64,000 nt of DNA from contig NZ_FSQZ01000001.1 in NCBI RefSeq assembly GCF_900129645.1, positions 1,178,001 through 1,242,000 on the forward strand, read 5' to 3'. Of the stretch, positions 8,631-8,951 are shown one piece after another. A program made the position numbers and the translations under genes. The stretch comes from Acetomicrobium flavidum. Lineage in GTDB: Bacteria > Synergistota > Synergistia > Synergistales > Acetomicrobiaceae. The stretch's first letter is position 1. The number at the start of each line of letters is the position of its first letter. The notes under the pieces were generated by a model. The model saw nothing but the letters and a program-made list of their open reading frames with translations, did not search any database and was not told the origin of the DNA.

Positions 8631-8673
8631 AATAAAAAATCCGGGGTTCGGCCTTGAGACCGAACCCCGGATT
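8631..8673 (-). terminator. Attenuator terminator in front of aroF
   Basis: Read on the minus strand, a perfect 14-bp stem (arms 8673-8660 and 8651-8638) with an 8-nt loop is followed at once by TTTTTT within the last stem bases and the next residues. It sits 20-odd nt before the aroF ribosome binding site and 23 nt after the leader ORF stop, so it would stop transcripts before the aro genes. Confidence 0.9.
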
Positions 8674-8739
8674 GTCTTGCTAATATGATACTTTACTATA
8701 CTATATTACGATACTGCTTCCCGCCCGGCGGTCGGTCTC
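8656..8739 (-). promoter_or_regulatory. Predicted antiterminator pairing of the aro leader
   Basis: The leader segment 8739-8725 (codons Gly-Asp-Arg-Pro-Pro of the leader ORF) is complementary to 8670-8656, the 5' arm and loop of the terminator, at 13 of 15 positions. Forming this helix would exclude the terminator stem. This is the alternative structure expected of a ribosome-mediated attenuator, in which stalling on the aromatic codons just upstream leaves the arm free. Pairing was found by eye; energies were not computed. Confidence 0.75.
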
Positions 8740-8881
8740 CATAAGAAAATTGGCCAGAAGCGTAATAATAACGCCACTGGCCGTCGCTAAAGTAATAACC
8801 GCCGGATATGGAGGCGCACATGCTACTGATGGCACTGACACATTGCCCTGATGCCGCTAGGAAACGTTCACCTATCATCAT
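8696..8881 (-). CDS. Aromatic-codon-rich leader peptide of the aro operon
   Basis: A 61-codon ORF with a very strong site GGAGGAGG (8895-8888) 6 nt before ATG 8881. Its second half holds YYF (codons 29-31), W36, YYY (38-40), F45, Y47 and Y57: ten aromatic residues in the last 34. The stop lies 23 nt upstream of the terminator stem, and the ORF encodes one arm of the antiterminator. The likely role is to sense charged tRNA-Tyr/Phe/Trp through ribosome progress, as in trp and pheA leaders. It is longer than the classical 14-30 residue leader peptides, so a separate function of the small protein is possible. Confidence 0.8.
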   Translation of the reverse strand: MMIGERFLAASGQCVSAISSMCASISGGYYFSDGQWRYYYASGQFSYGDRPPGGKQYRNIV

Positions 8882-8924
8882 TTAGCGCCTCCTCCATTTC
8901 GCAAAGTTTTAGGTTGACAATTAT

Positions 8925-8951
8925 GTTATACGACATGTCATAGTTTGTCAA
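8925..8951 (-). promoter_or_regulatory. Promoter of the aro leader and operon
   Basis: On the minus strand TTGACA (8951-8946) is a perfect -35 box. TATAAC (8930-8925, spacer 15) or TAACAT (8928-8923, spacer 17) can serve as -10. Start of transcription would be about 30-40 nt before the leader ATG. The region is flanked by an inverted pair TTGACAA/TTGTCAA (8914-8920, 8945-8951) and contains the palindrome GACATGTC (8932-8939), which could bind a repressor. Confidence 0.65.

Follow-up and report, generated by a model that had tools for sequence, protein, structure and literature searches.

In the trp and pheA leaders of E. coli, a stalled ribosome allows a 2:3 antiterminator to form in place of the 3:4 terminator. 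Each of these leaders senses one amino acid through tandem codons in a peptide of about 15 residues, and a 1:2 helix is part of the scheme. The E. coli ilvGMEDA leader senses isoleucine, valine and leucine, several end products of a branched pathway. In the E. coli trp leader, the control codons are contained in a pause hairpin (PMC1183508).

Attenuators have also been described in front of aroF. The aroR-aroF system of C. glutamicum (Neshat et al. 2014, as reported in PMC11802643; also PMC4046766) has a leader peptide before the DAHP-synthase operon, with Phe-Tyr-Phe control codons and increased transcription upon stalling; no Trp codon is reported for it. The uORFC-13-1 motif, predicted before aroF in Acholeplasma, combines a leader ORF containing Phe with a terminator, at least one Phe codon coming from a U-run, and no Trp/Tyr core is reported (PMC8632094). 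Two shikimate-associated candidate leader uORFs with Phe and Tyr are presented in Fig. 6b of Stav et al. 2019 (PMC6429828), whose main text names neither gene nor genome for them. According to the same text, Thermovirga lienii is among the five genomes scanned, under accession NC_016148.1. The T. lienii leader described below is located on CP003097.1 instead and is therefore probably not one of these uORFs, as far as the main text goes.

Here we analyse the region upstream of a DAHP-synthase operon in a window of 64,000 nucleotides, the whole stretch of DNA under study. Judged from its sequence, the region very probably constitutes a ribosome-mediated transcription attenuator through which expression of the aro operon is matched to the available charged tRNA-Tyr, tRNA-Phe and tRNA-Trp. 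The predicted arrangement of stalled ribosome, 2:3 antiterminator and 3:4 terminator is that of trp and pheA, and a candidate pause hairpin contains control codons as in trp. In contrast to trp and pheA, three amino acids would be sensed, the leaders have 46-80 residues, the stop codon lies past segment 2 and no conserved 1:2 helix was found. As in ilvGMEDA, one leader would serve several end products, here aromatic instead of branched-chain. Compared by description, the actinobacterial aroR shares the position, the aromatic control codons and the sense of the response, but not the Trp codon, while uORFC-13-1 belongs to yet another phylum.

A leader ORF precedes the aro operon

The window comes from a genome of 2.02 Mb that shares its genus with G005. 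A sequence-only reading had placed a promoter, a ribosome site, an aromatic leader, an antiterminator and a terminator before aroF. All of these elements were confirmed in place on the minus strand, upstream of the DAHP-synthase operon:

8951-8923, minus strand: putative sigma-70-type promoter, TTGACA-17-TAACAT, 10 of 12 consensus matches
8895-8888, minus strand: Shine-Dalgarno sequence of the leader ORF, GGAGGAGG, 6 bases 5' of the ATG at 8881
8881-8696, minus strand: leader ORF, 61 codons, MMIGERFLAASGQCVSAISSMCASISGGYYFSDGQWRYYYASGQFSYGDRPPGGKQYRNIV; 36 Synergistota genomes have a homologue in front of DAHP synthase
8797-8789, minus strand: upstream set of control codons, Tyr-Tyr-Phe (TAT TAC TTT); the Phe codon at 8791-8789 is TTT in each of the 32 distinct leaders
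8782-8752, minus strand: core hairpin, GGCCAGTGGCGT..ACGCTTCTGGCC, a predicted fold present in all 36 loci
8776-8774, minus strand: Trp control codon, invariant in the comparison of distinct leaders
8770-8762, minus strand: Tyr-Tyr-Tyr control codons (TAT TAT TAC), from the comparison of distinct leaders
8739-8724, minus strand: antiterminator segment 2, GAGACCGACCGCCGGG, within the ORF, from shuffles and covariation
8673-8638, minus strand: intrinsic terminator, 16 bp with a loop of 4, then TTTTATTT; -30.1 kcal/mol
8671-8656, minus strand: segment 3, partner of segment 2, forming the terminator 5' arm and part of the loop, from covariation
8610-7567, minus strand: aroF, DAHP synthase, first gene of the operon (PF00793, 5e-80)
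7594-6716, minus strand: prephenate dehydrogenase, from Pfam
6729-5422, minus strand: EPSP synthase, from sequence and the similar annotated gene order on T. lienii pTLIE01
5425-4256, minus strand: chorismate synthase, on the same grounds
4263-2596, minus strand: shikimate kinase/dehydroquinate synthase fusion, on the same grounds

The start of aroF is located 85 nt past the leader stop codon. The tight packing of the genes fits the proposal that the whole aro operon is under control of the leader. Shikimate kinase and dehydroquinate synthase are apparently fused into a protein of 555 residues, and T. lienii has a 522-residue protein in the same place. The leader has exactly the 61 codons that had been proposed, with ten aromatic residues among its last 34, and the pairing of 8739-8725 with 8670-8656 at 13 of 15 bases is equally exact. 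Two details need correction. The terminator and its U-run are present, but the stem has 16 bp and not 14, and the parts stand in the proposed order except that the ORF ends after the antiterminator segment and not before it.

A Shine-Dalgarno-like sequence precedes the leader in 36 of 36 loci. The fold of the leader RNA (8951-8620) has a z score of -5.7, and none of 100 shuffles was equally stable. By itself the promoter evidence is weak, as one promoter-like site was found in the region against a chance expectation of 1.6; the TTGACA element recurs upstream of the leaders of relatives. An inverted repeat, TTGACAA...TTGTCAA, also lies in the promoter region (8951-8914), where the -35 and -10 elements flank a GACATGTC palindrome. 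These repeats are present in three congeners (L002-L004), absent in a fourth (L005), and are possibly an operator.

The leader belongs to a single DAHP-synthase clade

The leader peptide was searched in 61 related genomes, and a profile of 16 leaders in 188 Synergistota genomes. The leader was found in 36 Synergistota genomes of ten families (f1 to f10). All strong matches in the 188 genomes are located immediately before DAHP synthase, and the homologues far from aro genes that would have indicated an ordinary protein were sought and not found among them. A search of the phylum with DAHP synthase as the query gave about 77 genomes containing the enzyme; weaker matches near E = 1e-25 are, by their distance, probably KdsA.

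In a tree of 78 DAHP synthases, all leader-bearing enzymes fall into a single clade (support 100/99, 36 rows), and every clade member with readable upstream DNA has the leader. In two clade members, G022 and G135, no leader was seen, and both loci end at contig ends. The 181 upstream bases of G022 contain the end of the core hairpin, an antiterminator-like GGAAATCGG and a terminator. This distribution indicates that the element has long been part of this lineage of DAHP synthases and is linked to it.

No leader was found upstream of DAHP synthases outside the clade in the Synergistota regions scanned, some of which are short. It was likewise absent from 75 regions upstream of the best DAHP synthases of other phyla, and from 23 whole genomes outside Synergistota in a search run without a positive control. 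Other Synergistota (L175-L213) have DAHP synthases of a different clade, without the leader. Rfam searches of 20 leaderless DAHP-synthase upstream regions gave no match, and no Rfam leader (Trp, Phe, His and others) or T-box reached the gathering score anywhere in the window.

In T. lienii, the leader is annotated as the hypothetical protein Tlie_1900, on plasmid pTLIE01. It is followed by genes for DAHP synthase, prephenate dehydrogenase, EPSP synthase, shikimate dehydrogenase, chorismate synthase and dehydroquinate synthase. The entire aro operon and its attenuator are located on a 31.9-kb plasmid (L214, CP003097.1), off the chromosome.

Aromatic codons occupy fixed positions

The 36 loci contain 32 distinct leaders, and 23 distinct peptides were compared for invariance. 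Leader length ranges from 46 to 80 codons. Only Phe31 and Trp36 (window numbering) are invariant among the 23 peptides, with Gly34, Tyr39, Tyr40, Ala41 and Gly43 near-invariant. Phe at -15 relative to the Trp codon, as well as Trp itself, is present in 32 of 32 distinct leaders, and the last Tyr in 30 of 32. The core Phe is preceded by one to several Tyr or Phe codons, while Trp-Arg (or Trp-Leu) is followed by two to four in nearly all leaders. With aromatic codons at these fixed places, all leaders include codons for Tyr, Phe and Trp, whose shared route of synthesis begins with this operon. Two observations count against an attenuator: in g26 (L165-L167) Cys replaces the last Tyr, and the window genus has extra aromatic codons, Phe at +27 and Tyr at +33, where a stalled ribosome would cover segment 2.

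Synonymous choice is also constrained. At the Phe position 15 bases before the Trp codon, all 32 distinct leaders use TTT, a codon that accounts for 18% of the Phe codons in the DAHP-synthase genes behind the leaders. The naive product for this invariance is about 1e-21, a figure that ignores relatedness. The second-last Tyr codon is TAT in 26 of 30, compared with 12% in DAHP-synthase genes. The TTT codon lies outside all modelled helices. A structural role for it was considered and rejected, as its predicted partner varies by locus and its mean unpaired probability is 0.43. The codon following TTT (8791-8789 and the equivalent position in relatives) is A(C/G)C in nearly all leaders. Our guess is that slow wobble reading accounts for the invariant TTT.

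Antiterminator and terminator covary

A terminator is present between the leader ORF and the first gene in 36 of 36 loci. Covariation was assessed in an alignment of 28 sequences built from three joined blocks (core, segment 2 and terminator). The 15 antiterminator pairs are paired in 90% of cells, and 8 of them have changed on both sides (31 cells). The cell and score measures were matched by none of 500 shuffles, and every slid control was far lower. In the terminator, 6 of 10 pairs have changed on both sides (37 cells, 0 of 500 shuffles); the control shuffles leave relatedness in, and covariation counts are not probabilities. The both-sided changes recur in separate families. In the window, GAGACCGA pairs with TCGGTCTC; relatives have GTGGAAATCCG with CGGATTTCCAC, GTAGAGATCCG with CGGGTTTCTAC and TGGGAAC with GTTCCCA. 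Aromatic codons, terminator and antiterminator are kept among relatives with compensatory changes, the outcome that the sequence-only reading had linked to an attenuator.

The window antiterminator duplex is better than all of 300 codon shuffles of the leader, and p is below 0.05 in 26 of 36 loci. In the other 10, mostly with GC-rich leaders, the duplex is no better than codon shuffles, which counts against the model. Compared with G048, a member of the same genus, G140 and G044 (L157 and L160) lack one base before segment 2. In both, the 24 bases TGGAAATCCGTCATCGGGACCTGC are preserved, while frame and peptide differ from L159. Their retention despite the frame shift indicates that the RNA is under selection in these genomes, as an RNA constraint predicts.

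A 1:2 protector helix, formed by 8806-8797 with segment 2, is strong in the window fold, but is no better there than codon shuffles (p = 0.38). A conserved helix of this kind was not found among 32 loci, only 7 of which reach p below 0.05. The ribosome itself may do the job of the 1:2 helix.

A conserved hairpin contains the Trp and Tyr codons

The core hairpin is predicted throughout from GGCCAGTGGCG, a loop and CGCCAGTGGCC. The Trp codon is located in the 5' arm, with the Tyr codons in and around the loop. Covariation is modest: two pairs have changed on both sides, and 19 of 500 shuffles score as high. Since some of the changed pairs replace an amino acid (Gly to Asp, Gly to Ala), the RNA accounts for part of the conservation of the peptide. 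In 21 of 32 distinct leaders, a T|G step follows the base of the hairpin at a distance of 11 nt. This is the spacing of hairpin-stabilised pauses such as that of his. By this analogy, the core hairpin is a likely candidate for an RNA-polymerase pause hairpin.

Ribosome positions and proposed mechanism

Counted from the first base of the last Tyr codon, the antiterminator starts at +22 nt in most lineages and at +25 in the window genus. This spacing is near-constant whether the run contains two, three or four aromatic codons. At the usual toeprint distance, a ribosome covers about 12 nt beyond the A-site codon. A ribosome with the last Tyr codon in its A site would therefore leave segment 2 free, and one advanced by about three more codons would start to overlap it. 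When the model places a ribosome at Phe -15 or at the last Tyr, the 2:3 helix forms (score above 0.4) before segment 4 is made in 36 of 36 loci. With the ribosome at Trp, it does so in 35 of 36. The stop codon is located beyond segment 2 in all loci (26 bases beyond in the window), so that an unstalled ribosome would cross segment 2 while segment 3 is being made.

Two results of the folding count against the model. In the ribosome-free equilibrium fold of the full RNA, the terminator beats the antiterminator in all loci, so the choice must be a kinetic one, as it is in classical attenuators. With no ribosome in the model, 2:3 would still pair before segment 4 in 14 of 36 loci, including the window.

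In the mechanism that we propose, the polymerase would transcribe the leader with a ribosome translating closely behind, the core hairpin probably pausing the polymerase until the ribosome arrives. Should any of the three charged tRNAs run short, the ribosome would halt at YYF, W or YYY. Its front edge would then remain short of segment 2 (8739-8724), which could pair with the emerging segment 3, blocking the terminator and allowing transcription of the operon. With all three charged tRNAs plentiful, the ribosome would move over and past segment 2, leaving segment 3 to form the terminator. Leader, control codons, covarying antiterminator and terminator, and spacing come from sequence comparison; from them we infer stalling, pausing and a response to each amino acid.

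The same genome contains a classical trp attenuator outside the window (L215, G000:C1:1361733-1361825, minus strand), with a leader ending in NNNWWWQAH before trpE and two strong hairpins with T-runs downstream. Attenuation thus operates in this lineage.

What the leader would sense

The best reading of the leader is an OR gate for Tyr, Phe and Trp, in which each of the three would be sensed. The earlier proposal that they are sensed together agrees with the invariant Phe and Trp and with Tyr in 30 of 32. More tentatively, the sensitivity of the gate could be set by synonymous codons, with the invariant, elsewhere rare TTT and the preferred TAT, both wobble-read, kept throughout the phylum as slow codons; we regard this as possible rather than probable.

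A narrower response is the strongest alternative, and still an unlikely one: the attenuator would be real but would mainly sense one or two amino acids, such as Tyr and Phe, with the Trp codon kept as a constraint of the hairpin arm. The leader contains a single Trp codon, where trp leaders have two or three in tandem, which also counts against the three-amino-acid model, and this codon is inside the conserved hairpin stem. The same genome has a dedicated trp attenuator with three Trp codons, and for C. glutamicum aroR (Phe-Tyr-Phe) a response is reported under Phe limitation (PMC11802643). However, Trp is invariant in 32 of 32 leaders while its neighbours vary (GQWR to GLWL) and the hairpin tolerates changes, and one slow, well-placed codon can hold a ribosome.

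It is improbable that, like TnaC, the F-x4-W-x-Y(Y) core arrests the ribosome as a nascent peptide, with a free aromatic amino acid as a possible effector. The invariable separation of Phe and Trp by five residues, as well as the near-invariance of non-aromatic core residues (G34, Q35 or L, A41, S/T42 and G43), could be explained in this way. These non-aromatic residues, however, mostly sit in codons of the core hairpin, and some of their changes are matched in the paired RNA (GGC to GGG with GGC to GCC in L007; Gly to Asp in L148). Conservation also extends to the choice of synonymous codon (AGT for Ser, TTT for Phe), for which an arrest peptide would have no use, and induction by amino-acid excess is the wrong direction for a biosynthetic operon.

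Even less probable is a riboswitch or an RNA-binding protein that governs the same terminator with the ORF in a secondary role. The conserved hairpin upstream of the antiterminator speaks for this reading, but there is no Rfam match, conservation lies in codons of the pathway end products, and the Shine-Dalgarno-like sequence is present in all 36 loci. An ordinary small protein, by chance located before aroF with a constitutive terminator behind it, can hardly account for the data: among leader peptides the ORF would be a long one, and in T. lienii it is annotated as a hypothetical protein (Tlie_1900), yet a functional protein was rejected since in the genomes searched the ORF was found only before DAHP synthase with no copies away from aroF, just two residues are invariant, the frame changes in segment 2 and RNA changes are compensatory.

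Discussion

Our results support the interpretation of the locus as an attenuator. The kind of element is already known from the trp and pheA leaders and from aroR before aroF in Corynebacterium. The sequence-only reading knew of no description in this group of organisms. This agrees with the literature, as we found no description of a Synergistota aro attenuator in open papers, the supplement of PMC6429828 excepted. The kind is nevertheless less new than that reading assumed, because aroF attenuators are known from Corynebacterium (aroR) and Acholeplasma (uORFC-13-1). What seems to be new, as far as the searches reach, is the phylum-wide family, the three-aromatic leader, the hairpin containing Trp and Tyr codons, and the invariant TTT, a codon rare elsewhere.

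Little is known about gene regulation in Synergistota. Conserved in ten families of the order, the leader would be a point at which the synthesis of aromatic amino acids is controlled. It would represent a natural three-input sensor placed before the committed step of the shikimate pathway. Its natural variants, in which the Tyr or Phe codons number two, three or four, Cys replaces Tyr or the frame is shifted in segment 2, make the number, synonymous choice and spacing of control codons in attenuators directly testable.
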